24,514 bases of DNA from a virus. Positions 1 to 13,440 of the stretch are shown one piece after another. The stretch covers positions 1-24,514 of the IMG/VR virus record IMGVR_UViG_3300028557_000186; one strand, 5' to 3'. Numbering within the stretch: position 1 is the stretch's first letter; each line of letters opens with the position of its first letter. The notes below the pieces were generated by a model, which saw nothing but the letters and a program-made list of their open reading frames with translations, was not told the DNA's origin and did no database searches. The translations under genes and the position numbers were made by a program.

Positions 1-2802
1 GTTGGTGTTGGAGCTATAGACGCGGCCATTGTTGCTCTCAACGATCTCATTTGCAGGGATTGGTACGCCGCCATTCCACGGAAGGGCGTCATAGTTGGTG
101 CCGCTGCCCACAAACTCAAACGTATGAGAGGGCGCCGAAACCTGCGACCGGTTGCGGAAGTCCAGCCGCTGCCCCGCAGCGATTGGGTCTTTCAGCCCGC
201 CGTTGGTGTCAGAGAAAAATTCAACCCGGTAGCCGCCACTGATCGGCGTGCTGCTGGTGACCACGTAGGCGCTGGTGGGGCAGATGAACGTCAGCCCCCC
301 GACCAGGACATTTCCATTGCCCGCAGGGAGGGTCGTCTTGGTGGTCAGCGTGACCACGCCGGTGGTTTTGTTGTAGACGGCATTGGCCACCCCGTAGTCG
401 ATCCCACCGATCACAGCGGTCCCGCCGCTCACGTATTCGTGCTCAGGGCCGCTGGGTAATGCGGTCTCGTTGTAGGTGAGCGTGGTGTCGCTGGCGCGGA
501 TGTAGCTGAATGTCTTGGCCTCTGCGGCGCCCGTGCTGGCGTTCCTCGGGAACACCAGCTGCGGGAACATCAGTTGCCCAGCGTTGGGGCGGGATGCGCT
601 TGAGCAGATGAACGACAGGCCCGCCAGCGTGACCTGATCGCCCACTGTTGGCGCGTAGCCGGTGGCCGTCAGCACCATTACGCCTGTGGTGTTGTCGAAG
701 GTCGCGCTGGTGATCGGGTAGCTAATCCCCCCGAGCGTCACCGCGCCGCCGCCCACATACTCATGAATGATCGTGCTGGTTGCCAGGGTCACCGTGAAGG
801 CGCTGCCAGCGGTGGAGCCGCTTACAGCCGTGATCGTGACCGGGTTGCCGGCGCTGCCAGTGCTGCCGGCGCTTGGGTATTTGATCTGGCGGCCCAGCCT
901 GTTGGCCGAGAAGCCGACTACATCGACCTGGGTAGCTCCTTGGCGGATGAACTGATAGGTGCCGGTGGCGGCGCCGGTCATGTTGATTGCAGCGCCACCA
1001 GCCGTCGCGCTCACCCGGAACGCATCGGCGGTAAACCCTGATGCGATTACGTGATACGAGGTCAGCGAGGTGGGGGTGGCTGCCAACCCCGTGGGGAAGT
1101 CCCCATTCGTCACTTCAAACCGCACCTGGCTGCCAACGCTCAGCCCGTGAGCAACGCAGCTGAAGGTGTCGGTAGTGGTGTCGATCGTGACGGCCTTTTG
1201 CAGTCGCGTTGCGCCATAGGTGGCTGCCAGCGCCCCACCGGTGTAGAGCGGCTTGGGGCTGTAGCCATCGGCCATCAGGCCGTAGATGCCGAAGTCAGAG
1301 GTGCCGCCGCCGCTGAGATTGACCTGGCCGCCGCTCTCGCAGCGGACGTGATACTCACAGAACGTGCCGAAGAACGACACGAGCTGCGCATAGCCGTCGT
1401 TGATGACCAAACAGCCAGGGCCACCCAAATTCACTTGGGTGTAGCTATCGACCACCATCGAACGGATGGGGGAGTTGAGAGCGCATGCACTGCCATCAAC
1501 CTTGATGCCGCCGCCCGTGTTGCCGGTGGACTGGGAACCAGCGGTGCCGGCATCATCCTCTGCCGTGATGCTGGTGCAGTTCTGAATGTACGGGCTCTTG
1601 AGGATGAACGCGCCGGGGCTTATTGCGCCCCGAGCTGTGTTATCCGCCAGCCCGTTGAAGCTGATGGCCCATGCCTGGCGCATGGCGTCCGCTTGGTGAC
1701 CTGCAAATGAAAAGCCCCAGCACCAGAACCCGGAATCGACCTTGAAGATGTCCGTGAACTCCAGGCCGGTGGCGCCTTGAATGACGGTTGAGCGCAGGCC
1801 AGAGCCAAACAGCGTCACATCGGGGCGCCACCGGATCGGCAAGACCGGTTCCACGTAGGTGCCGGGGGAGGTGAAGACCACATCGCCTGGCAGGGCGAGC
1901 GCGGCAGCGGCGCCATGGGTCTTCAGCGGTGAGTCGATCGTGCCGGTGTTGTTGAGGTCGTGGCCGCTGGTCGCAACGTAGATGCAGTTGGAATGCCGGA
2001 TCTTCGCCAGCGCATATTGAGGGTGGGCGTTCGCATCCAACTCATGGGTGTCAATCGCGCCTGTGATTGCGTCAGCAACTACTTGGGGGACGCCGCCGCC
2101 ATCGGCTGATTGCTTGACGTAGCGGCTATCAGGGTCACCAACGATGTAATCCACCCATTCCCAGCTGGAGCCGGAATAAGACAGCCGCACTTTGAGCTGG
2201 GCGCTTCCAACGAACCCAGCAGGCCTGCCAGAGAGAGGGGAGAAGCTCTCGATCCCAGTGCTATTGGCAATCTCGATCCGTGCCCCCGCGGCTGGGCTGG
2301 CAGGAATTGCCGCGACCGTAGCAATCGGGGCGTAAGGCAGGGCGCTTCCGACCCCAGCAAGCGCCGCATCAGCCGCCGCAGATGCAGCGTCAGCGGTGGC
2401 GACAGCCTCTAGCGCTTCGGCGATTGCCTCTTGGCTGACTTGGTTGGATCGAGTTGCAAAATCAATCCACTCCTGCACCACATAAAGGCTCTGCAGATCT
2501 GAAATGTTCAGATCGTCTTGGATCAGGTTTGATCCGTCGTTCCATGCAACTACCTGAGAGCCGTTAGGCGTCTCCCTGCGCACCGTGAGCCGCACCCCTG
2601 CCGCCGGCGCTGCAGTTACCTGCACCTGGGTGTCACTGACCCAGGCGTAACCGGTGCCCTCGGCCAGCAGCGTGGTGTAGGCGCCGGTTTCGATTGCCAG
2701 CCCTAGGTAAACCTTGACGTGCGCCTTCAGCAGGTACGGGAACGGGACCGAAAATGTGGTGGCGGACCCGTTGCCCGCGTACTGCGCGTATGAGTAGGGC
2801 AC
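1..2802 (-). CDS. T7 gp17-like tail fibre / tailspike, partial (3' end beyond window)
   Basis: Receptor-binding fibre on the short tail. A continuous frame of 934 codons runs from a GTG at 2802-2800 to the window edge with no stop. It begins MPYSYAQYAGNGSATTFSVP, the style of the T7 tail-fibre N-terminal domain that docks to the tail (about residues 1-150). An Ala-rich segment (SNQVSQEAIAEALEAVATAD) follows. Next comes a tailspike-like stretch beginning IYVATSGHDLNNTGTIDSPL and GDVVFTSPGTYVEPVLPI, typical of beta-helix fibres. A module with CVAHGLSVGSQVRF and two copies of a 54-codon module (HEYV...FIC) come later. No ATG is available: the frame has an in-frame TGA at about 2826 and only GTG 2802 fits the family N-terminus. 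There is no clear Shine-Dalgarno; a small hairpin (2811-2822) sits just upstream. The N-terminal and beta-helix calls rest on family resemblance; receptor and enzymatic activity cannot be told. Confidence 0.88.
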   Translation of the reverse strand, partial: MPYSYAQYAGNGSATTFSVPFPYLLKAHVKVYLGLAIETGAYTTLLAEGTGYAWVSDTQVQVTAAPAAGVRLTVRRETPNGSQVVAWNDGSNLIQDDLNISDLQSLYVVQEWIDFATRSNQVSQEAIAEALEAVATADAASAAADAALAGVGSALPYAPIATVAAIPASPAAGARIEIANSTGIESFSPLSGRPAGFVGSAQLKVRLSYSGSSWEWVDYIVGDPDSRYVKQSADGGGVPQVVADAITGAIDTHELDANAHPQYALAKIRHSNCIYVATSGHDLNNTGTIDSPLKTHGAAAALALPGDVVFTSPGTYVEPVLPIRWRPDVTLFGSGLRSTVIQGATGLEFTDIFKVDSGFWCWGFSFAGHQADAMRQAWAISFNGLADNTARGAISPGAFILKSPYIQNCTSITAEDDAGTAGSQSTGNTGGGIKVDGSACALNSPIRSMVVDSYTQVNLGGPGCLVINDGYAQLVSFFGTFCEYHVRCESGGQVNLSGGGTSDFGIYGLMADGYSPKPLYTGGALAATYGATRLQKAVTIDTTTDTFSCVAHGLSVGSQVRFEVTNGDFPTGLAATPTSLTSYHVIASGFTADAFRVSATAGGAAINMTGAATGTYQFIRQGATQVDVVGFSANRLGRQIKYPSAGSTGSAGNPVTITAVSGSTAGSAFTVTLATSTIIHEYVGGGAVTLGGISYPITSATFDNTTGVMVLTATGYAPTVGDQVTLAGLSFICSSASRPNAGQLMFPQLVFPRNASTGAAEAKTFSYIRASDTTLTYNETALPSGPEHEYVSGGTAVIGGIDYGVANAVYNKTTGVVTLTTKTTLPAGNGNVLVGGLTFICPTSAYVVTSSTPISGGYRVEFFSDTNGGLKDPIAAGQRLDFRNRSQVSAPSHTFEFVGSGTNYDALPWNGGVPIPANEIVESNNGRVYSSNTN
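280..765 (-). repeat. Duplicated 162-nt (54-codon) module in tail fibre
   Basis: Two diverged copies of the same module lie 324 nt apart at 765-604 and 441-280. Both begin HEYV(G/S)GG, contain a core of the form TTGV(M/V)(V/T)LT, and end in (L/G)GL(S/T)FIC. They have exactly equal length. This beta-rich module with TGV...GL.F.C is of a type I associate with structural proteins of marine and freshwater phages. Likely a domain duplication in the fibre shaft or tip. Confidence 0.75.
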
Positions 2803-2810
2803 GGAAGATA

Positions 2811-2822
2811 TGCACTGGTGCA
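2811..2822 (-). other. Small hairpin upstream of tail-fibre start
   Basis: The 12-nt element TGCACCAGTGCA (minus strand) is a perfect inverted repeat with a 5-bp stem and a 2-nt loop (or 4 bp with 4 nt). It lies in the 41-nt gap between the upstream giant gene stop (2844) and the GTG start of the fibre (2802). It occupies the region where a ribosome-binding site would be expected. Possible regulator of fibre translation; it could also be chance. Confidence 0.35.
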
Positions 2823-2843
2823 GACCTCATGTTATGGGCCTTG

Positions 2844-5800
2844 CTACTGCCGGCCTACCCCCAGCACCGAAAGCGCTTCCATCCGTTCCTGCAGCTGCGT
2901 TGAGCGGTATCGCACCATTGCCCCGTAGCGATTGGCAAAGCCCTGGGCCACCGGGTCTTCATTGGACAGCAGCTGCATTAACGCTGCCTTGTCGTAGTAG
3001 TTGATGATGTCCTGAATGGGCTGGTAGAGCTCGGTTTCTCTGCGCTCGGCGAACTTGGCCTTATTCACCCGCCTGTCTGGTCCCATCGGATCGGTGGACA
3101 CCAGCTGCTGGTAGCCAGGAGCGTTCATTAGCGCACGCAAAGCGCCAACCATGTCCCGGCCCTGAATAAAGCCATCGATGGGGATGTACGGCTCGCGGCC
3201 CAGCATCTGCGCAGCAGGGATGTCGGCCTTGATGGTGCGCATCTGCACCCGGTAGAAGGTCTCCTCGGCGTTGGTCATGGTCAGCCCAACGTCGCCCTCG
3301 CCGCCAGGGATGGGCAGCGCCACAAGTCCATCTGGTCGGGGTTTGCTCGTCACCCCTGTATCAATCAGCCACCGGTAAAGGCTGTCTTGCGGCTGAATCA
3401 CCGGCATAAAGGGGATCACCGCCTCGGCGGGGATGCCAAACGGTCGCTTGATTTCGCTGCCCAGCCAGTCGAATCGAGTGGGAGCCTTGAGCACCTGGTT
3501 GAGGCCAGGGATCGGCCGGGCCGCTTTCTCGCCCACCTTCTGCAGGAACTCAGCCACCGGGGCAACGTGGTCCACGTAGATCGGGTCCATCTCCAGCGCC
3601 TTCTTCTCATCCTTGGTGAGGAAGCGGCGGCGGTCGGTAGCCTCCAGGGCGCCGCGGTCAGCTCGAGCAACCATCGAGAGCAGGCCCGACAACGGCATGA
3701 TCCCGCCCATCTGGGTGGCCAGGATGTCGGCCATGTCCGCCCGGTCGGGCTGAGTCATGGCGTTTAGCATCGTGGTGGTGTTGAGCAGGCTGGCTTTGTT
3801 GTTTAACATCCGCGCCATGGCCATGGTCAGGCCCTGCAGGGCCTTGGTGCCATCGCCCTCGCTGATGCCCTCCTTTATCACCAGTTGTATGATGTCGGCG
3901 TAGAGCCCCAGGATGTCGATTGGATCGATGCCACCAAAGCGGAACCGGGCGGCCGGGATTACCTGACCGTTGAGTTGGAAGCTGTAGGGGGTGTTGAGCC
4001 TGCGCCAGCGGGCGTACTCCTCAGGATCGGAGGGGCCGCCACCGGTGAAGCCACCACTGGCGATCATGGCGCTGCCGGCGGTGAAGAAGCCCAGCGACAC
4101 GATCGCCTGGGCCCGGGCCTGGGCCAGCACCTCTGGCGATGCGCTCTCCATCTGAGCCCCCAGGGCCTTCACCACCGATGGAACTACGGTGCGGTCGATG
4201 CTCCACAGCAGGGCGCTGATCGGCGTCTTGAAGAACGGCATCTGCCACGCCACCAGTGCATTTGCTCGGGTCATGTTCAAGCCCTGAATAATCGGGTCCT
4301 TAATCGTGTTGGTGAAGGTGACATTCGCTGCCCGCTGCAGCCCGATCGCGCCTAGCTCAGTGTCGGCCCGGGGCACACCCTTGAGTTCGTTGAAGGCCTG
4401 CAGCCGCAGCACGTCATCAGGCAGCTCATCACCCATCGGGATGCCCCGCTCGCGGCGGAACGTCACCAGATCTTCCTGGCTCATGTAGCCGTCAAACATC
4501 GACTTCTCGGCCATCTGCTCGGCCCGGTTGGCCACCCAGTCGGAGCCCAATTGGCGGCCCGTGGCTTCATCCATCACGCCTTTGGCTTCCTCGAAGGCCC
4601 GCAGGTAGGACTCATGGTTCACCTTCCAGGCGTAGGCCATGGTGCGGATCATCTCGTCACCGGCCCCCAGCAGCCGGAAGGCGGGTAGATAGCCGCCGTT
4701 CCAGCCGCCCAGGAACCGTTCGCCCAGCTTGCCCAGCGTCAGGCTGGTGGCGGCGTTGAGCACGTTCATCAGCGTCACCGCCGGGCCGGCCCCAACGGTG
4801 TTGCGCCAATAGGAGAGGTCTTGCAGCAGGGCAAAGCCGGTGGTGAGGGCATCAACGATCTGCTGCTTTTCGTTCTGGATCAAGTCGGGCGCAAGCTCCA
4901 TGGCGTTGTCCAGTCCCATCCGCGCCTTGCCGGTGCCCAGGAAGGTGCTCGCGTTCTTCCATGCCATCTGCCACGCATCGAGGGTGGCGCGGTTGGCAAA
5001 GGCCGCAGCACGCAGGCCACCGGCCATCCCTGCCCTCAAGCCACCTTCAACGATGTCTTCCATGCCGTGGTGAAAGGCCACCAGTGCGCCGCTGACCGGG
5101 TTGCGGGCCAGCCACGTACCCGGCGATAGCAGCATGTTGTTGCGCCGGAAGTTATTGAGCAGTTCGATCTGCCCCATGATCCGCGAGCCATTCATGCTGG
5201 TGCGCGTCAGCCGGTTTGTGCGAGCGACGGCCGCCAACTGCCGCAGCTTCAGGAAGTCACCCTTCTCAACATGCTCAAGCGTCTGCCCCAGCAGGGTTTC
5301 ACCCTTGATGTCGGCCATCGTCAGGTTTGACCGGTTGGCATCAGGGCTGATCAGATCCATCTCGGTGCCGCGGAAGTCGAACTGCAGCCCCCGCATGGCC
5401 CGGCCCAGCTGCGTTCGCACCGCGCTGTCCAGGTTCTCAAAGAAATGCGCCCACTGGGCTGAGTGCCCCAGCTGCAAACGCATCTCGTCGGTCAGGGACC
5501 CCACCTCCAGGGCATTGGCCACTTCCTCGAGCTTGTCGGCGTACTGGCTCACCGAATCCCAGCGCGCCTTGGCCACCTGCACCACTGAAGCCGGCAGTCG
5601 GTCAATCTCTTTGAACCGCCGCCCTAGTGCTGCGGCCACCTCTCTGGGACTACCCCCGTACTCCTGAGCCATGCGCATCAGGCTGCGCATCGCCACCGTC
5701 TCGGTGAAGCGCTGCTTCAGCTCCACACCCTTGGGCGTGTTGGCCCGCTGCAGGCCCATCACCTCCAGCAAGCCGTTGATGTTCTCCAGGTCCGGTGGGA

Positions 5801-6134
5801 GCTCGCTGTAATCGACTCCGTACTGCCGATAGTTGATCATCCGGCCGCTGCTGCCACGGGGGCCCTGCTGCTCGCGGAAGCCGGCTTCAACCAGCTGCTG
5901 CACCGATCGGTCACCCTTGGCGATCAGATCCGCCTCCCCCTGCTTTATCCAGGCCTCATTGGAAACTCCCACCTCCTGGCCGGTGTAGGTGCGCAGCTTG
6001 GCCACGCTCTTGCCCGCCGCCGGCAGCTCATCTAGCTCGAGGATGGCGCGGGCGGCGGCCTCCATCTCATCCAGTTGCCGGATCTTCGCTTCGATCTCAT
6101 CAATTTGTTGGGCCAGATTGTTGCAGTCAGCCAT
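2844..6134 (-). CDS. Giant internal virion / ejection protein (gp16-position, second of two), 1096 aa
   Basis: Probable internal core protein ejected with the DNA, in the place of T7 gp16 (just before the fibre). Visible features: N-terminal predicted coiled coil (QIDEIEAKIRQLDEMEAAAR, about residues 9-28); long helical middle; a segment RANALVAWQMPFFKTPISAL at about 625-650; a hydrophobic stretch (about 674-695, SLGFFTAGSAMIASGGF) that could insert into a membrane; then RFRFGGIDPIDILGLYADII (about 725-745). The WQMPFFKTP...GIDP style is what I know from large internal virion proteins and other polyvalent phage proteins. T7 gp16 is 1318 aa; this protein is shorter and lacks any recognisable transglycosylase. 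Start ATG overlaps the upstream stop as TAATG and has a strong AAAGGAGG about 9 nt upstream. Not secreted; acts in the virion and host envelope. Exact role is inferred from position. Confidence 0.8.
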   Translation of the reverse strand: MADCNNLAQQIDEIEAKIRQLDEMEAAARAILELDELPAAGKSVAKLRTYTGQEVGVSNEAWIKQGEADLIAKGDRSVQQLVEAGFREQQGPRGSSGRMINYRQYGVDYSELPPDLENINGLLEVMGLQRANTPKGVELKQRFTETVAMRSLMRMAQEYGGSPREVAAALGRRFKEIDRLPASVVQVAKARWDSVSQYADKLEEVANALEVGSLTDEMRLQLGHSAQWAHFFENLDSAVRTQLGRAMRGLQFDFRGTEMDLISPDANRSNLTMADIKGETLLGQTLEHVEKGDFLKLRQLAAVARTNRLTRTSMNGSRIMGQIELLNNFRRNNMLLSPGTWLARNPVSGALVAFHHGMEDIVEGGLRAGMAGGLRAAAFANRATLDAWQMAWKNASTFLGTGKARMGLDNAMELAPDLIQNEKQQIVDALTTGFALLQDLSYWRNTVGAGPAVTLMNVLNAATSLTLGKLGERFLGGWNGGYLPAFRLLGAGDEMIRTMAYAWKVNHESYLRAFEEAKGVMDEATGRQLGSDWVANRAEQMAEKSMFDGYMSQEDLVTFRRERGIPMGDELPDDVLRLQAFNELKGVPRADTELGAIGLQRAANVTFTNTIKDPIIQGLNMTRANALVAWQMPFFKTPISALLWSIDRTVVPSVVKALGAQMESASPEVLAQARAQAIVSLGFFTAGSAMIASGGFTGGGPSDPEEYARWRRLNTPYSFQLNGQVIPAARFRFGGIDPIDILGLYADIIQLVIKEGISEGDGTKALQGLTMAMARMLNNKASLLNTTTMLNAMTQPDRADMADILATQMGGIMPLSGLLSMVARADRGALEATDRRRFLTKDEKKALEMDPIYVDHVAPVAEFLQKVGEKAARPIPGLNQVLKAPTRFDWLGSEIKRPFGIPAEAVIPFMPVIQPQDSLYRWLIDTGVTSKPRPDGLVALPIPGGEGDVGLTMTNAEETFYRVQMRTIKADIPAAQMLGREPYIPIDGFIQGRDMVGALRALMNAPGYQQLVSTDPMGPDRRVNKAKFAERRETELYQPIQDIINYYDKAALMQLLSNEDPVAQGFANRYGAMVRYRSTQLQERMEALSVLGVGRQ

Positions 6135-9100
6135 TAGCAGGAGCCTCCTTTGGATTGTTTACGCAGCTCCTCAAGCTGCTTGGCGAGCTCGGCCCGCGCC
6201 TTGGGGATGTCGCCCAAGGCCTGTTTGGCGGCCTGGGCCTCGGCGGTGCTGGGCTTCGCCTTGGCCTTGCCCTTCCCCTTTGCAGGGGCGGCAGGGGCCG
6301 GCACGGCCGCCTTGGGCGTCACCACCATCTCTCCGTTCTGGTGAACCATCACCCAGTCGAGGTCAAAGACGGCTGGCTTCCGATCGGGCTTCGGCTTTAG
6401 CTCTGGTGTGAACTGCTGCACGTTGGCCTGGGCCGCTGATCCCTTCCCTCGATAGGGCTTCGGCGAACGAGGGCCCGCTGCATCCAGATCGGGGTTGAAT
6501 GGCGCAGTCGCCGGCCGCACCACATCCACCGGGTTAGCAAGCTCATCGGCCGACATGCGGAACATGCCGCGGCCCATCAGCCCCAGCCGCTTCTTCTCTT
6601 CCCAGCTCAGGCGATCCCAACCATGGGCCGCCATCCATGCGTCCTTCATCCCTTGCTGGGCCTGGGCATCGAGCAGGTTGTACTCAAACCGCAGCCGCAT
6701 CTCATCAATGAGCGCATCAGCGTTCTTTCTGCCTGCCTTGTACGGAGGCAGGGAGTCGGCATTGAACGCCATCGCCAGCTGCCCGGTTTCATCGCTCATC
6801 AGGTCATCGATGAGGCTCTGCTGCTGGAAGGACTCAGGCTCTCCCGGCCGGTTCGGGATCGGTGTCATCGGCGCCTGCACCTCGCCGTTGTCGATCGCAC
6901 GGCGCAGGATCGCCATCTTCAGCCGTTCACGGGTTTCGGTATCCATCCCTCGAGGTTTGAACTCAGCCAGTGGCACCGTGATCTCATTGCCATCGGCATC
7001 AAGGATCTGCCCCATCGGTGACGAGGTGCTCAGATCAGCCGGCGTGTCTAGCAGCGGCGCATCGTCAACGCCAGCCATGTTGGTGCGCAGCGGCGCCATG
7101 AGCTGTTCAGGTTCAGGTGGCAGGTAGCGATCCCGCTTTTCGCTTAGCTCCACTAGGGCGTCGATGATGTCGCTCTTTTTTGAGTGCCACACCCGCCGGC
7201 CGGTGCGTGCCTTGATTAACGCCGCAACCTCTGGAGAGGAATTGGGCATCGCCAAGCGGCGCAGCAGATCACGGGACCAGCCCTGCAGCGCTGATCGGTA
7301 GTCGTCGGGGGTTTGGTAGCCGTACAGGGTGCCGCGCTGCATCACCTGTTGCAGAGGGGGCAGCTGCACTTCGGGGGACAGGTCCATGCCCAGCTGTTGC
7401 GGCAGGTCCATGCCCAGCTGCTGACCCACCAGTGATTCAGGAGCTTGCAGCCGTTGCTGAATGGTTTGCACTTCTTGCTGTGCAAACTGCAGCTCTCGTT
7501 GTACGCGGGTTACCTGGCCCTTGGCGCCGCGGGGGGTAATTCCCCCTGCGGTTTGGCGGGCGTCGATGTCGGCGAGCCGCTGGGTGAGCTCCTCGATCCG
7601 CTGCTGTGCTGCCGTCAGGTCTTCGGCATTGCGAGCTTCGCCGGCCTGGCGCCACACGCGGGAGTGAATGTCCCGCAGTTGGGAATCATCCAGCTCGTCA
7701 AGCTGAGCCAAAAAGGTGTCTAGCTCGGGCCTGGTGTCTAGATCCAGTTCGCCTTGCCGGCTGCCGCGTGGAGCCAAAAACTTTTCAGTGGTGCCTGAAA
7801 GGTTCAGGTCGGCAATCTGCTGATCGATCTCATCCACCTGCTGCAGCAGCTGCTGGGTGATTTCAGGGTCAGCTTCTGCCACCTGAGAGATCAGCTGGCC
7901 GCGCTGCCGCTGCAGCTGCTCAATCTCAGCCCTGGCGGCCGGGTTGCCGGAGTCCACCTTCAGGGCCAGCTGGCCGGCTTCACCCTGCTCAAGCAGGCCG
8001 GCGGCCATCAACCGTTCGCGCTGCTCCTCCACCTGGCGGATTTGGGTCCCCTCGTCGAGGTAACGCTCAATCGCGCTGCCGTTTGGGGTGGTGGGCACCA
8101 GGGCGCCGCCGGGCTGGTATTCGGGCAGTGCCGGGGCATCAGGAGGGGTGCCGGGTAGTGCGCCGCCTGGGGTCGCCACGTCGATCCGTGCTGGCGGGAT
8201 CGGGCCACTGTTAGCTGCTGCTTGCATTTGCGTGCTGGGCAGCTGGGGGATGACCGCCCCCGGTGGCAGCTGTGGCGCATCCGTGCCCCGGTACATGTAG
8301 GGAGCCAGCTCTGCATCGGCCAGGTCATCGAGCGGGGTGGGGCCGCCGAACATCGCCTTGCGCAGCAATGGCACGAAGCTGGCGGCGCCGATCACGAGCA
8401 ACGGTGCGACGAGGCCCTCCACCAGAACTCCCTTGCCGAACTTCTGCAGGTAGTTGTCGTTCTCATCAGCGCGGCCCGGCAGCTGGAGGCCGAACGCATC
8501 GCCAAGGTTGGCGAGGTTTTGCTCCATATCGATGAACGGCGCTGCCATGGTGGTGCTCACCAGCGCTTTCCCGACATTGGTGGTCACCTGCACGCCGGTG
8601 CGCAGCACTGGGTTAACCCGCTGCGCCACTGCCAGGCTCCGCACCGCACGGGTGGCCTTCACTGCGTCGGCAGCACGCTTGACTTGTGCGACCTGCCCCA
8701 AACGTCGCAGCAGGGTGGCGCCCGTCAGCGCACCAAGCATTTCACCGCCGACCGCGCCCCCCACCTCCATGCCGGCCATGTCCGCCGGCGTCACTTCCCC
8801 GTAGAACGGGCCAACGCGGAACGGGTTGAGAGATCGGGTTACTTCATCTGGGATTCGCCAGGCATCTCGGGTGTCAATCGGTTTGCGCTGCACCCAGTCG
8901 CCGATGGCGTTGCCGAGCTTGCTGACGGCATTGATCGGTCCCACCACGATGCCCGCTTTAAAGTCGGGTGAAGCCAACATGTTGCTGAACTGAGCCAGCG
9001 GCTTGATCGGGGCCGCTGCCTCAAGGCGTTGGTTCATCTCGGCTCGTGTGAGCCGCTTGCGATTGCGCTGTTGCTGCGGCTTGGCTCCACCACCACCACC

Positions 9101-9214
9101 ACCCTGGGCCGGTGCGGTTGGAATGACACCGCCACCGCCCTGGGTCGGTGCGGTTGGAATGACCGGCTCAAACGCTGAATCGTCTTCGATTGGTGCGAGG
9201 TTGAATGCAGGCAT
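6134..9214 (-). CDS. Giant internal virion / ejection protein (gp16-position, first of two), 1026 aa
   Basis: Large protein between the gp15-like and the second giant protein; very likely a virion or ejection protein, but I do not recognise a family domain. It opens with two 12-residue repeats (VIPTAP(T/A)QGGGG, about residues 19-42) and a basic Gln/Arg segment. Hydrophobic segments follow: AGMEVGGAVGGEMLGALTGA (about 147-166) and VLVEGLVAPLLVIGAASFVP (about 264-283), both plausible membrane-inserting parts. A Gln/Leu-rich, coiled-coil-like region spans about 400-630. It contains a duplicated QLGMDLPQ. The C-terminus is Ala/Lys/Pro-rich (KGKGKAKAKPS), perhaps nucleic-acid binding. Start ATG is 4 nt after the upstream stop, with GGAG about 10 nt upstream; its stop overlaps the next start (TAATG). 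It could be the N-terminal half of a split gp16 or an additional core protein. Confidence 0.72.
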   Translation of the reverse strand: MPAFNLAPIEDDSAFEPVIPTAPTQGGGGVIPTAPAQGGGGGGAKPQQQRNRKRLTRAEMNQRLEAAAPIKPLAQFSNMLASPDFKAGIVVGPINAVSKLGNAIGDWVQRKPIDTRDAWRIPDEVTRSLNPFRVGPFYGEVTPADMAGMEVGGAVGGEMLGALTGATLLRRLGQVAQVKRAADAVKATRAVRSLAVAQRVNPVLRTGVQVTTNVGKALVSTTMAAPFIDMEQNLANLGDAFGLQLPGRADENDNYLQKFGKGVLVEGLVAPLLVIGAASFVPLLRKAMFGGPTPLDDLADAELAPYMYRGTDAPQLPPGAVIPQLPSTQMQAAANSGPIPPARIDVATPGGALPGTPPDAPALPEYQPGGALVPTTPNGSAIERYLDEGTQIRQVEEQRERLMAAGLLEQGEAGQLALKVDSGNPAARAEIEQLQRQRGQLISQVAEADPEITQQLLQQVDEIDQQIADLNLSGTTEKFLAPRGSRQGELDLDTRPELDTFLAQLDELDDSQLRDIHSRVWRQAGEARNAEDLTAAQQRIEELTQRLADIDARQTAGGITPRGAKGQVTRVQRELQFAQQEVQTIQQRLQAPESLVGQQLGMDLPQQLGMDLSPEVQLPPLQQVMQRGTLYGYQTPDDYRSALQGWSRDLLRRLAMPNSSPEVAALIKARTGRRVWHSKKSDIIDALVELSEKRDRYLPPEPEQLMAPLRTNMAGVDDAPLLDTPADLSTSSPMGQILDADGNEITVPLAEFKPRGMDTETRERLKMAILRRAIDNGEVQAPMTPIPNRPGEPESFQQQSLIDDLMSDETGQLAMAFNADSLPPYKAGRKNADALIDEMRLRFEYNLLDAQAQQGMKDAWMAAHGWDRLSWEEKKRLGLMGRGMFRMSADELANPVDVVRPATAPFNPDLDAAGPRSPKPYRGKGSAAQANVQQFTPELKPKPDRKPAVFDLDWVMVHQNGEMVVTPKAAVPAPAAPAKGKGKAKAKPSTAEAQAAKQALGDIPKARAELAKQLEELRKQSKGGSC
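7379..7420 (-). repeat. 24-bp tandem repeat inside first giant ejection gene
   Basis: The 18-nt core caggtccatgcccagctg (plus strand) occurs at 7379-7396 and again at 7403-7420, a 24-bp period. It encodes the duplicated QLGMDL(P/S) peptide. In-frame, so it expands or contracts by eight residues without breaking the gene. Confidence 0.8.
9102..9163 (-). repeat. 36-bp tandem repeat encoding VIPTAPxQGGGG
   Basis: Two 26-nt cores at 9102-9127 and 9138-9163 differ at a single base and are 36 bp apart. They encode two consecutive 12-residue units, VIPTAPTQGGGG and VIPTAPAQGGGG, near the N-terminus of the first giant ejection protein. Low divergence suggests a recent duplication in a flexible linker. 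Confidence 0.85.
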
Positions 9215-9217
9215 GGG

Positions 9218-9727
9218 TCAGTTTCTCCGCTGTTGGGAATTGCCCAGGTATTCGCGTCGGGCCTGTTTGAGCATTGCTCTCACCTGGCTGGCCGGGATAC
9301 TTGCTCTGTTGCCGGCTTTATCGCCGTCGCGGACCCCTCGGCCGTTGGGGGCCTGCAGCGCCATCCACTCGTGGGCTATGTCCCAGTGGGCGGCGTCGAG
9401 GTTGTTGCTTTGACCGGTGATGTAAGCGGCCAGGGCCGGCCGCTTGCTGCCGGTGATCAGCGTTATGGCCATCCGGTTTTGGTTCTCGGGCGTAAAGGGT
9501 GCATTCGGCGATAGGCCCGATTCGCGGCGAGCACGGGCCAGCACTCCAGTAGTGAACTGGTAGGCCCCCACAGCAAATACTTGGTCCTTGGCCTGCATCG
9601 CCTCAAGCGAACCGATCGAACGATTGGTGATGGTGCCAATCCCCCTGCCGGTGTTGTTTACCGTGCCGAAGTTCACGGAGTTCCATCCGCCTTCACCACT
9701 GCGAATCAAAGCAAGAAGACCGTTCAT
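9218..9727 (-). other. Candidate in-frame internal gene: free lysozyme-like protein, 169 aa
   Basis: The same frame as the gp15-position gene, from an internal ATG at 9727-9725 to the shared stop. The product would be exactly the lysozyme-like domain, beginning MNGLLALIRSGEGGWNSVNF. Seen directly: AGGAGGAGG seven bases before this ATG, and the ATG sits at the domain border. A free product could serve as a lysis enzyme or work with the virion-bound form. That it is translated is my inference; peptides alone could not separate it from the full-length protein unless the N-terminus is seen. Confidence 0.45.
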
Positions 9728-12145
9728 GCCGTTTCCTCCTCCTGTTGTTGAAGTCATGGGACGAGAGCGCTGCAGATAGACCGCTGCCAGAGTCCCCGCT
9801 ACCGCCGGCGGGGTAAACATCCGCATCAGCCAGCCGCCATTCGCAAACGGGTTGTATCCAGCAGGGGCCGCACCTACCGTCGCGCCCTGAATGTTGGGCA
9901 GCTGGCTACTCGAGACCTTGCGATTTGCGCTCTGCTGCTTCTGCTTCTCCTCCAGCCAGCGTTTTGCATCACCGCTGGGATCGAGCTTCGGGTAAAACTT
10001 CAGCTGGTCCAACAGGTAGCGGAACGTGCTGGTGCCGGCGCGGTTGGCCATGTTGTAGAGCTCACCGCTCACCGGCTTGTCGGTCTGCAGCCGCAGCAGC
10101 TCATCCCGCACCCATTTGCCATCCATCACCGGGCGGTTCTCGTAGTTGCGCACCGTTGAATCCGGCAGCGACTTAGCCCCTGCCCTGGGCACGCCGCGGG
10201 CATTCTTCGGATCGGTGCCAACGGTGCGGGGCCCCACCTCACCAGGCATGCGGCCGGTCAGCTCCAACATCGTCTGGGCCCACTCCCGGCTATTGCGCAC
10301 CGCCACCTCGGTTTCGCTCATCACCACGCTGCGGGCGGCAGGGCTCAACACCATCCCCGGCCGCTCAGCCTGCCAGTTGCGGATACCAGTGGACAGCGCC
10401 CGCTCGTAGAGCGCCGTGAGCCGGTTGGCTGCTGCCGTCAGCTTGGTGTTCTGGTAGGTGGCCGAAATCGCCTGGGTGGCTGAAGCGCCGCCAGACATTC
10501 GATGCGCCAAGGCTTGAGCCAGCGCATTACCGCTTTTGCCGTTGACCTTCTGCTGGTTCTTGATCTCCCGTACCGACTGGCTGTCGAGGTCTTGCAGCAC
10601 GGCAGAGGTGACCCGATCCTTCACCCCAGGGTCAACCTCCGTCGCATCCTTGCGGGCCTTATTGATGGCTGACACCATCCGCTGGTAATCGTCCTTCCTG
10701 CCTTCCGGGGTGCGGTTGTTGTTGGCAATCTCCCGCGCATTGCGCAGAGCGTTTTGGTAGCTGTTCGGATCGTCGGTCCAGGCGCTGGGCCCAACCTGAC
10801 CAACCGAAACAATGAAGTCCTCCACTGCAAATGGGTCAGGAGGCCTCACCACTTGGATGAACTCGCTCTGATCCTTCGCCCGCTTGGAGATGTACGCCTC
10901 TGGGGTGAGGTAGCCCAGGGCCATCGCATCATTCCTGAACTTCAGCAACGCTGGCCCGTATTGCTCAATGTTCGCTGGGTCAATTAGCCCTGGGCCGGAA
11001 TACCAAAGCTCGTCCAGCTTTCGCTCAACCGTCTGCTGCGCCAGGTCAAACTTCTTCTGTGCCGTTTCCTGGCCACGCACCTGCAGTTCCAGCGTTTCAA
11101 ACGGAGCCATTGCACCCCACGTCGGCCGCTTCTCGTAGGGCATCGACGGGTCGCCGCTTCGCACATTGCTCAGCAGCTCCGAGGCAAATGGGTCTTGACC
11201 AAAAAACAAAGTCACCTGCTCGCGCAGAAACTGGATCGTTCGCTTCCGCGCCTCAGGCGACAACAGCCGCAGCTGCTGATCCAGCCCATAGGTGATCATC
11301 GCGGGCCCGTACTGTCTCCACTCGGGTGACCCAGGCTTGAAGGTCACGCCTTGCACCTCAACCCCCTTGGTGAGCATCTGCTCCACCGTTGCGGTGGTTC
11401 CCGACACCGTGGTGTTGCGGGTCGATTCCTCCACCGCCGCGTCATAGAACTTCCGCTGCTTGTCCCGGTAGTCGTCCCACGACTTGTTGAGCCTCGGGGT
11501 CACATAGAACTGCACCTCTGGCTCATCGCCCGTCAGCCCAAAGCGATCCAGCACCTGCGCAGTTAGCTGCACCCGCCGCTTCTCGATCTCAGGGCTGTCC
11601 GGCCGCAGCCGGCTCAGCTCTCCTGCATTAGCGCTCAGGTCATCCTCAAGCGCCCTGCCAATCTCGGGCCCCGCCAGTTGCGCCACCGCCCGCCGCCGGC
11701 CAATCAGCTTCCACGGGTTGGTTTCATTCAGCAGCTGAGCTGCAACCGGATCTTTCTTTTGCAGCTCGCCGATCTGGCTAGCAGCATCAGCAGCGCTCGT
11801 CTCTGCCTGCACCTGCAGGGAGAGCATTGCCTTGGCCCGCTGGTTCTTGAGCTCGTCGTAGTAGCTCTGCTCAATCAGTCCCTTGCGAGATTCCAGATAC
11901 CCCTGCCCTACCGTTTCGGTCAGCGCTCGGCTAAACGGCGCCAGGGCTTGCGCCAGCTGCTCGAACTGGTTGGAGCCTTGGACGTTCGAGGTGCCACTGA
12001 TGGCGATGGTGTTGATCCCTGTCGGGTTGTCGAGCTGTACCGGCCGCGCTGGCGCAGCAGGCTGGAACTGCGCCGGCTGCGCAAAGGCGCCGATCGGCCG
12101 CGCTACCGGCGTGATCTGACCAAGTGGAAGATTGCGGTCTGCCAT
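9218..12145 (-). CDS. gp15-position internal virion protein with C-terminal lysozyme-like domain, 975 aa
   Basis: Internal core / ejection protein, expected to form part of the trans-envelope tube in T7-like phages (T7 gp15 is about 747 aa). Residues 1 to about 780 are mostly helical and match no motif I can name; the assignment is by position after a gp14-like gene. Residues about 807-968 form a peptidoglycan hydrolase-like domain: SGEGGWNSVNFG with the likely catalytic Glu at 818, then FAVGAYQFTTGVL (about 857-869), an RPALAAYI segment and HEWMALQAP. Its pattern is that of phage lysozyme/transglycosylase folds. A short hydrophobic stretch (FTPPAVAGTLAAVYL, about 780-800) and a Thr/Gly linker precede it. 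In T7 such an activity lies at the N-terminus of gp16 instead. Start ATG 12145 is 6 nt after the gp14-like stop, without a clear Shine-Dalgarno. An internal ribosome-binding site is annotated separately. Confidence 0.82.
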   Translation of the reverse strand: MADRNLPLGQITPVARPIGAFAQPAQFQPAAPARPVQLDNPTGINTIAISGTSNVQGSNQFEQLAQALAPFSRALTETVGQGYLESRKGLIEQSYYDELKNQRAKAMLSLQVQAETSAADAASQIGELQKKDPVAAQLLNETNPWKLIGRRRAVAQLAGPEIGRALEDDLSANAGELSRLRPDSPEIEKRRVQLTAQVLDRFGLTGDEPEVQFYVTPRLNKSWDDYRDKQRKFYDAAVEESTRNTTVSGTTATVEQMLTKGVEVQGVTFKPGSPEWRQYGPAMITYGLDQQLRLLSPEARKRTIQFLREQVTLFFGQDPFASELLSNVRSGDPSMPYEKRPTWGAMAPFETLELQVRGQETAQKKFDLAQQTVERKLDELWYSGPGLIDPANIEQYGPALLKFRNDAMALGYLTPEAYISKRAKDQSEFIQVVRPPDPFAVEDFIVSVGQVGPSAWTDDPNSYQNALRNAREIANNNRTPEGRKDDYQRMVSAINKARKDATEVDPGVKDRVTSAVLQDLDSQSVREIKNQQKVNGKSGNALAQALAHRMSGGASATQAISATYQNTKLTAAANRLTALYERALSTGIRNWQAERPGMVLSPAARSVVMSETEVAVRNSREWAQTMLELTGRMPGEVGPRTVGTDPKNARGVPRAGAKSLPDSTVRNYENRPVMDGKWVRDELLRLQTDKPVSGELYNMANRAGTSTFRYLLDQLKFYPKLDPSGDAKRWLEEKQKQQSANRKVSSSQLPNIQGATVGAAPAGYNPFANGGWLMRMFTPPAVAGTLAAVYLQRSRPMTSTTGGGNGMNGLLALIRSGEGGWNSVNFGTVNNTGRGIGTITNRSIGSLEAMQAKDQVFAVGAYQFTTGVLARARRESGLSPNAPFTPENQNRMAITLITGSKRPALAAYITGQSNNLDAAHWDIAHEWMALQAPNGRGVRDGDKAGNRASIPASQVRAMLKQARREYLGNSQQRRN
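9735..9743 (-). promoter_or_regulatory. Internal Shine-Dalgarno (AGGAGGAGG) within gp15-position gene
   Basis: Minus-strand AGGAGGAGG ends 7 nt before the internal ATG at 9727. It is made by three consecutive GGA glycine codons, preceded by TCA ACA ACA. Elsewhere in the window glycine runs use GGC and GGT (for example the QGGGG linker near 9138). The A-rich, GGA codon choice is therefore unusual for this GC-rich sequence and fits selection for ribosome binding. Confidence 0.55.
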
Positions 12146-12151
12146 GGGGCG

Positions 12152-12991
12152 TTACGGAGGGGTGCCGGGGCCGAGGCCCGTATTGGGGGTCTTGAGCGCA
12201 TTGAGCTGCGTGCCCATCGCCGTACCGGTTTGAATCCCCCCGAGAATCGAGGTGCCGATATTCAGCACTGCAGCCCCAGCGCTTGGGCCGCTTCCCGTCA
12301 TCGACGGTGGCGGTGGCGTCAGCAGCGTGGGCAGTGGCGCAAAGGGCGGAATCGGATCGATGTACGGCTGCTCTTCGTAGAACTGCTGACTGTTCCACCG
12401 GCTCAGATACTGCGTTGCGGCAGCCGCCTGCTCGCGGCTGTATTGCCGCGTTCGCAGCTTCTGGTTGATGTCCATCAGCGTTGCGTAATCGCCCTCCTGG
12501 CGGGCGTAGTCGTTCACGATCCGATCAACCGACCGCCCTTCTTGGTTCATCGCCTGCACCGATGCCCGAGCCTGCAGCGCTCGCCAGCGGTATTGCTGCA
12601 TCGCCACGGCCTCTTGCATTGAGGCCTCCTGATAGGCCTGGCTGACGGCTTCGCTGTCCTGCACAAATGCTGCGCCAGCCGCAGCACGGGTCTGGCCAAC
12701 AGTCTCAGCCTGGCGAACGCTTTTGATCAGCTCAAAATTCCGCAGCGAATTGGTGTAAGCCCGCTGCTGGTTGTAGTTGACCGTCTCCGTCCAATACTTG
12801 AACTGCGAATTGGCATCGGTGACACGCTGGTTAAAGCCGGCCTGCCATTGCGCAAACTGGGAATTGGCGCTCTGAAACGCCTTCTGATTGATGTAGTCCT
12901 GCTTCTGCGCCTGGCCGCCGGTAATGGCGCCCATCACTCCCATCAGGGCCTGGGCTCCACCGATCGCTAGCGCAGGGGTAATGACAACCAT
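12152..12991 (-). CDS. gp14-like internal virion protein, 279 aa
   Basis: Internal core protein; in T7 gp14 is ejected first and forms the outer-membrane part of the channel. The N-terminus (ITPALAIGGAQALMGVMGAI) is hydrophobic and glycine-rich like that of gp14, followed by Gln/Ala-rich helices to about residue 200. GRSVDRIVNDYARQEGDY (about 152-169) resembles the GSSMDRI segment of T7 gp14. The C-terminal 80 residues are Pro/Gly-rich (PIPPFAPLPTLLTPPPPSM) and an extension compared with the roughly 196-aa T7 protein. Start ATG overlaps the upstream TGA (TGATG) and has GAGAGGT about 8 nt upstream. Assignment from N-terminus, composition and position. Confidence 0.82.
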   Translation of the reverse strand: MVVITPALAIGGAQALMGVMGAITGGQAQKQDYINQKAFQSANSQFAQWQAGFNQRVTDANSQFKYWTETVNYNQQRAYTNSLRNFELIKSVRQAETVGQTRAAAGAAFVQDSEAVSQAYQEASMQEAVAMQQYRWRALQARASVQAMNQEGRSVDRIVNDYARQEGDYATLMDINQKLRTRQYSREQAAAATQYLSRWNSQQFYEEQPYIDPIPPFAPLPTLLTPPPPSMTGSGPSAGAAVLNIGTSILGGIQTGTAMGTQLNALKTPNTGLGPGTPP

Positions 12992-13440
12992 CAGGCCGAC
13001 CTCTCGAAGTAACGGAACAACTGAGCGCAGGGGCCATGGGGCTCAGCTGGCCAAAATTGAAAGCCCAGTGATTTCAACCAGCGGATTGAATCGCGGTTAC
13101 CCGCAAAGGCCCAGTTATGCAGTGGTCCTGCCCCATCATCTAGCAAGCTATCTATCCATTGCTTTGCACCTCTGATGAATTGCTGCCGGTGGCTCTTGGT
13201 GGCCAGCAGCTCCTCGGTGCTCAGCAGCCAGATCACCCCTCCAGGCGCCACTCCACAAATGCCCACGGGGGTGCCGGCGTCTCCATCTATACAACGACAG
13301 TCTGGGCTGTTTTTCCAGCTCTCGTAGACCGCCTCCTCTGGTTGCATTGCATGGCTGTAGAAGACCTCGGCTGCATCCTGCTGCCGCAGGTGGGTGGCAA
13401 TGTGCGCCACGCGCCATTCATCCGGTGTGGCCCATTTCAT
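12991..13440 (-). CDS. gp13-like (GNAT-fold) virion assembly protein, 149 aa
   Basis: Sits between tail tube B and the gp14-like gene, as T7 gene 13 does, and has the right size (T7 gp13 is about 138 aa). The sequence ends with a GNAT-style motif, AFAGNRDSIRWLKSLGFQFW (about residues 112-131), matching the VGNTSHIRFLKTIGA part of gp13 as I recall it. Earlier, PVGICGVAPGGVIWLLSTEE parallels PLAIGG...CWFVTSD. In T7 gp13 is needed for virion assembly; an acetyltransferase activity is not established. I chose the ATG at 13440 rather than upstream ATGs (13503) because it forms an ATGA overlap with the tail-tube B stop and has AAAGGAG about 9 nt upstream. Confidence 0.82.
   Translation of the reverse strand: MKWATPDEWRVAHIATHLRQQDAAEVFYSHAMQPEEAVYESWKNSPDCRCIDGDAGTPVGICGVAPGGVIWLLSTEELLATKSHRQQFIRGAKQWIDSLLDDGAGPLHNWAFAGNRDSIRWLKSLGFQFWPAEPHGPCAQLFRYFERSA

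Follow-up and report, generated by a model that had tools for sequence, protein, structure and literature searches.

The ejection protein gp16 of phage T7 carries a peptidoglycan hydrolase, a transglycosylase domain, at its N-terminus. The locus described here resembles that arrangement, but the hydrolase domain is C-terminal and lies on the protein at the gp15 position. Virion-associated lysozyme domains of the same fold and of related sequence occur in S-CBS2 (gp082), S-CAM7 and ACP17, where they are on other virion proteins or alone, whereas here the domain is fused to the gp15-position protein. In Synechococcus phage S-SRP02, ORF45 (QTP86401.1, MW822601.1) has the same position, domain and ATG codon; it was annotated as an amidase and hence proposed as a lysis gene (PMC8790148).

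In-frame internal translation starts are established in endolysin genes of Gram-positive phages (PMC9430671, PMC4777826, PMC7098653). As in CTP1L, LysIME-EF1 and LysP7951 (PMC4777826, PMC7098653, PMC9430671), an in-frame Shine–Dalgarno (SD) run and ATG at a domain border would here yield an N-terminally truncated isoform. Those three are dedicated endolysin genes, and what their short product contains is usually the binding domain, whereas in the present case the gene presumably encodes a virion protein and the predicted short form would be catalytic. A literature search for virion-associated enzymes with internal starts returned nothing beyond the endolysin papers. If the start is functional, production of a free hydrolase from the gene of a virion protein would be unreported in the literature searched.

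The analysis presented here indicates that the gene probably has one main product, an entry protein of the virion to which a muramidase domain is fused, and that the SD-like run and ATG are most likely incidental or of minor use. This reading is preferred because the domain fusion is kept without the ATG or SD, the neighbouring genes are gp13-, gp14- and gp16-like, the domain family occurs in virion proteins elsewhere, and a separate endolysin is present.

Genomic context of the gp15-position gene

The window, that is the whole stretch of 24,514 nt that was analysed, is a 24.5-kb piece of the ~42-kb genome of a freshwater cyanopodovirus. S-SRP02 (42,143 bp) is a close relative by gene content, and its late genes are colinear with the window.

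9218..12145, minus strand: gp15-position gene, an ORF of 975 aa with a C-terminal lysozyme-like domain; putative internal virion (ejection) protein

The full-length product (107 kDa) shares 69.6% amino acid identity with S-SRP02 ORF45 over the whole protein (99% coverage). By synteny with S-SRP02, the gene order is nozzle, gp13-like, gp14-like, the 975-aa gene, orf46 and gp16-like. The gene therefore lies within the late operon between the gp14-like and gp16-like genes, separated from the latter by the extra gene orf46. The gp14-like neighbour matches the Pfam family T7_gp14 with E=4e-4, which is under that family's cut-off, and the gp16-like gene matches phrog_6651, an internal virion protein (E=1.7e-8). 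No sequence homology to T7 gp15 was found; the N-terminal 807 aa matched no PHROG and the whole 975-aa protein matched no Pfam family, and the protein is therefore called 'gp15-position' rather than gp15. It is most likely carried in the capsid, and would open the peptidoglycan locally during genome entry.

The lysozyme-like domain

9218..9727, minus strand: lysozyme-like domain, recognized from PHROG profiles, an SGEGxW motif, AlphaFold2 and structural matches; equal to the 169-aa product if the internal ATG is used
9728..9793 (start approximate), minus strand: variable linker between a conserved TPPAVA (PPAAAA) motif and the domain, from a 24-sequence alignment

The domain matches phrog_30077 (E=9e-17) and the endolysin profile phrog_90 (E=4e-10); the PHROGs matched fall in the categories unknown function and lysis. 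An AlphaFold2 model of residues 1–169, counted from the ATG at 9727, is a complete globular domain (pLDDT 91.4), confident from the first residue and with a helix at residues 2–12. The preliminary description had placed the ATG exactly at the border of a lysozyme-like domain, and the predicted fold does begin there. Structural matches in BFVD, with E down to 8e-13, are phage proteins, among them a named lysin-domain protein; several of the structural neighbours are tail, baseplate or lysin-domain phage proteins, and gp5/VgrG OB-fold proteins are also present. A sequence match to the domain was also obtained with S-CBS2 gp082, which is 200 aa long, stands alone and carries the annotation 'structural protein'. 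Glu12, within the SGEG of the motif, is invariant in 22 sequences and may be the catalytic residue. The profile and fold matches, taken with this conserved Glu, place the region among phage lysozyme/lysin domains. The Pfam family Phage_lysozyme2 gave a weak match, in 3/22 members (best E=0.004). Foldseek against the PDB returned nothing below E=0.6, and sequence searches of solved structures found no lysozyme.

The domain is fused at the C-terminus in virtually every relative examined, including many that lack the ATG or the SD. The protein is most likely an ejection protein whose C-terminus carries a muramidase-type domain, attached through a variable, partly Gly-rich linker. In two contigs (L003, at 10484–11224, and L011) the gene extends ~240 aa past the lysozyme domain; the additional tail in L003 matched no Pfam family. 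On a non-syntenic phage contig, L089, a gene of up to 250 aa (5989–6741) encodes the lysozyme-like domain on its own. This was considered as a split version of the 975-aa gene, and was rejected because the contig has no other match to the gene or its neighbours.

Upstream of the variable linker (window 9770–9840, minus strand), a conserved amphipathic-looking stretch is followed by the TPPAAAA-like motif. Both are kept in distant relatives, and the motif is a possible processing site. A free lysozyme might arise by proteolysis at this PPAAAA (A-x-A-like) motif, for instance while the protein is ejected into the periplasm or afterwards. The motif persists in distant relatives even though the length and sequence of their linkers vary, which is consistent with such cleavage; against it, the motif may be structural, and no protease was identified. 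This route seems improbable.

The SD-like run and in-frame ATG

9725..9727, minus strand: in-frame ATG, codon 807 of the gene, at the domain border
9735..9743, minus strand: AGGAGGAGG, SD-like run encoding linker Gly-Gly-Gly, 7 nt before the ATG

The junction reads, on the minus strand, 5'-TCA ACA ACA GGA GGA GGA AAC GGC ATG AAC GGT-3', and a product from this ATG would be 169 aa (18.2 kDa). The nine-base run (AGGAGGAGG, 9743..9735) and its distance from the ATG at 9727 are as originally described, as is the unusual choice of GGA codons in the linker: GGA makes up 12% of the Gly codons in the gene. The predicted duplex energy of the run with the anti-SD is −12.2 kcal/mol, ranking third among 160 in-frame internal ATGs in 13 genes. 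Synonymous shuffling gave an expectation of 1.25 sites of such strength per module, against three observed. Within the window, AGGAGG followed after 4–10 nt by ATG occurs six times (1.9 expected), and GGAGG with the same spacing nine times (8.8 expected). Given the Gly-Gly-Gly residues, the single-site probability at the junction is 0.15–0.18. Taken by itself, the window shows a strong signal, though not an exceptional one. The RNA around the junction has no fold more stable than those of shuffled sequences. The SD of the window is paired in a predicted hairpin that is absent from relatives.

Conservation of the junction among relatives

The junction was read in 77 relatives with the domain, including S-SRP02 and L134, a contig from a Cyanobium MAG that is an SD-ATG member almost identical to L005. 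An ATG occupies the codon-807 position in 12 of the 77; elsewhere the position is mostly Phe, with Ala, Tyr, Lys, Arg and other residues in the remainder. Six contigs (L002, L004, L005, L006, L007 and L134) combine GGAGGA or GGAGGG with a correctly placed ATG, and the SD-bearing lineages number five (the window; L002; L004; L005/L007/L134; L006). A scan with a degenerate pattern for more MNGLL junctions recovered only contigs already in the set. The AGGAGGAGG-ATG arises where the Gly linker meets a hydrophobic residue at the helix start, which is Met in this clade and mostly Phe elsewhere.

In the closest clade, SD and ATG are kept together in five of seven lineages. The ATG is also retained in S-SRP02 and L003, but these have lost the SD, with TTC GGC in its place (TTC GGC AGT GGC ATG in S-SRP02). 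In a tree built from the remainder of the protein these two fall inside the SD-bearing group with 84–91% support. A single loss in their common lineage would be the simplest history, the support in the tree being moderate.

The five SD lineages have pairwise identities of 0.44–0.69 at four-fold sites, their linker residues vary, and GGA accounts for 6–13% of the Gly codons in the gene. Among the 55 all-Gly columns of the gene in these lineages, the SD column is the only one that is invariantly GGA, a point against the one-product reading. Of the 71 internal ATGs conserved across 13 genes, none has a better conserved anti-SD energy than the junction. When its Gly columns were replaced by random all-Gly columns, with relatedness kept, the observed SD strength was reached in all five lineages in 1.2% of trials (p ~0.012); per-lineage probabilities are only 0.03–0.30. 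Across the 13 genes in four lineages there are five all-GGA Gly columns, and two of the four others lie at authentic SDs, those of the gp16 start and of the gene after p037. Both serve as a positive control, the former for a conserved SD within coding sequence.

6132..6149, minus strand: AGGAGGCTCCTGCTAATG, start signals (SD, ATG) of the gp16-like gene; they overlap the end of orf46

The SD of the gp16-like gene is kept as GGAGGC/T in all seven phages. A 10-codon scan for synonymous constraint gave z values of 2.8–2.9 at the two authentic SD sites and of at most 0.9 at the junction, which is no hotspot.

These results suggest that, in the five-lineage subclade, the junction signal is kept somewhat better than chance. 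The sole invariant GGA column, the best conserved SD and the coincidence of such columns with authentic SDs argue for some selection on ribosome binding, and amount to modest evidence that such selection acts weakly in one subclade. The selection proposed in the preliminary description is favoured by the column statistics of the subclade, and not by the synonymous-constraint scan or the single-site probability. Similarly, retention of the GGA run and ATG while the linker varies holds for the five lineages, and fails in S-SRP02, L003 and most of the 77 relatives, where the domain persists without ATG or SD.

An internal start used in the subclade would release a free 18-kDa muramidase beside the fused form, which could assist lysis or co-assemble with it, as an accessory to the C39/M15 endolysin. 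The spacing of SD and ATG is ideal, the domain border is exact, and the signal is kept in five lineages despite varying linker residues (column-shuffle p 0.012); endolysin genes provide a precedent (PMC9430671, PMC4777826, PMC7098653). However, the signal is missing in S-SRP02, L003 and ~70 other relatives, and in the window the SD is covered by the predicted hairpin, which is not common to relatives. In addition, the survey of endolysin internal starts included a portal-protein control in which internal starts were predicted at a rate of 15%; these are taken to be false positives, for which the control is a fair measure (PMC9430671). On balance a functional internal start is rather unlikely. 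The broader proposal, that in this subclade of S-SRP02-like cyanophages the ejection-protein gene is dual-product, giving a free muramidase beside the modular endolysin so that entry and exit would both rely on one domain, is one that we regard as unlikely.

Alternatively, the GGAGGA run could be a ribosome pause site, or a codon quirk at the domain boundary, with slower elongation aiding folding where linker and domain join, and no initiation. Its position at the boundary and the conserved GGA codons are consistent with this, but the exact spacing to the ATG would then be a coincidence and the role of SD-like codons in ribosome pausing is disputed; we consider this explanation quite unlikely. 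With the single virion entry protein as the preferred reading, a low level of initiation may still occur at the SD-ATG, perhaps under weak selection in one subclade, but the site would be neither general nor the source of the endolysin.

A separate endolysin gene

The absence of a visible endolysin was noted when the locus was first described. The window is a partial genome, 24.5 of ~42 kb, and so the absence of an endolysin within it says little. A contig designated L118 (IMGVR_UViG_3300028559_000288) has 99.73% nucleotide identity to window positions 1–9527 and extends past the left end; judged by this identity, it is a contig of the same phage. Its gene order is tail-fibre gene, C39-type gene and terminase (maturase) region; the endolysin lies just outside the window.

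L118 13415..12882, on the opposite strand to the tail-fibre gene: C39-type endolysin gene, 177 aa; phrog_10051 'endolysin', E=1e-67

Ten records of relatives exceed 35 kb (nine contigs and S-SRP02), and nine of them contain a dedicated endolysin; G009 is the sole record in which no endolysin gene was found. Where mapped, these genes lie between the tail-fibre and terminase genes. All near-complete SD-bearing relatives (L002=G001, L004=G003, L005=G004 and L007=G006) have one.

The endolysin gene is modular, with a common N-terminal module of ~60 aa joined to three unrelated catalytic domains in related phages (L030–L037). The module is combined with a C39 peptidase in S-SRP02 (6443–7156), G001 and G020, with an M15_3 peptidase in G003, G004 and G006, and with a glucosaminidase in G022 and G025. 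G012 encodes an M15_3 protein, and G014 a glucosaminidase and M15 in one open frame. The C39 protein of L118 is without the ~60-aa module. From their families and modular make-up, the C39, M15_3 and glucosaminidase genes would encode lysis enzymes, and lysis is most likely effected by this separate gene between the tail-fibre and terminase genes.

It had been proposed that the internal product might serve lysis, and the S-SRP02 authors placed ORF45 under lysis by annotation (PMC8790148). The separate endolysin genes in L118 and in nine of the ten records of relatives argue against this, since the domain would not be the sole lysis enzyme of the genome, and S-SRP02 is without the SD yet lyses its host. 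That the internal product is the lysis enzyme of the phage is thus highly improbable. Both the evidence on the domain and the presence of a separate endolysin likewise speak against the published lysis role of ORF45. For the S-SRP02-like lineage the assignment can be corrected: ORF45 more probably encodes an entry protein of the virion, and the endolysin is probably encoded by the gene beside the terminase.

Other features of the window

In window positions 1–2802, the plus-strand ORFs are likely to be spurious; the minus strand is a single open tail-fibre frame, with 934 codons without a stop, which runs off the window edge. Its counterpart in L118 encodes 1214 aa with a T7 tail-fibre N-terminus. 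In the p043 gene (12991–13440), at about alignment codon 52, the DNA run CGT TGC ATA GAT GGA GA is nearly invariant in seven phages. It includes an ATA codon, and no conserved start codon adjoins it.
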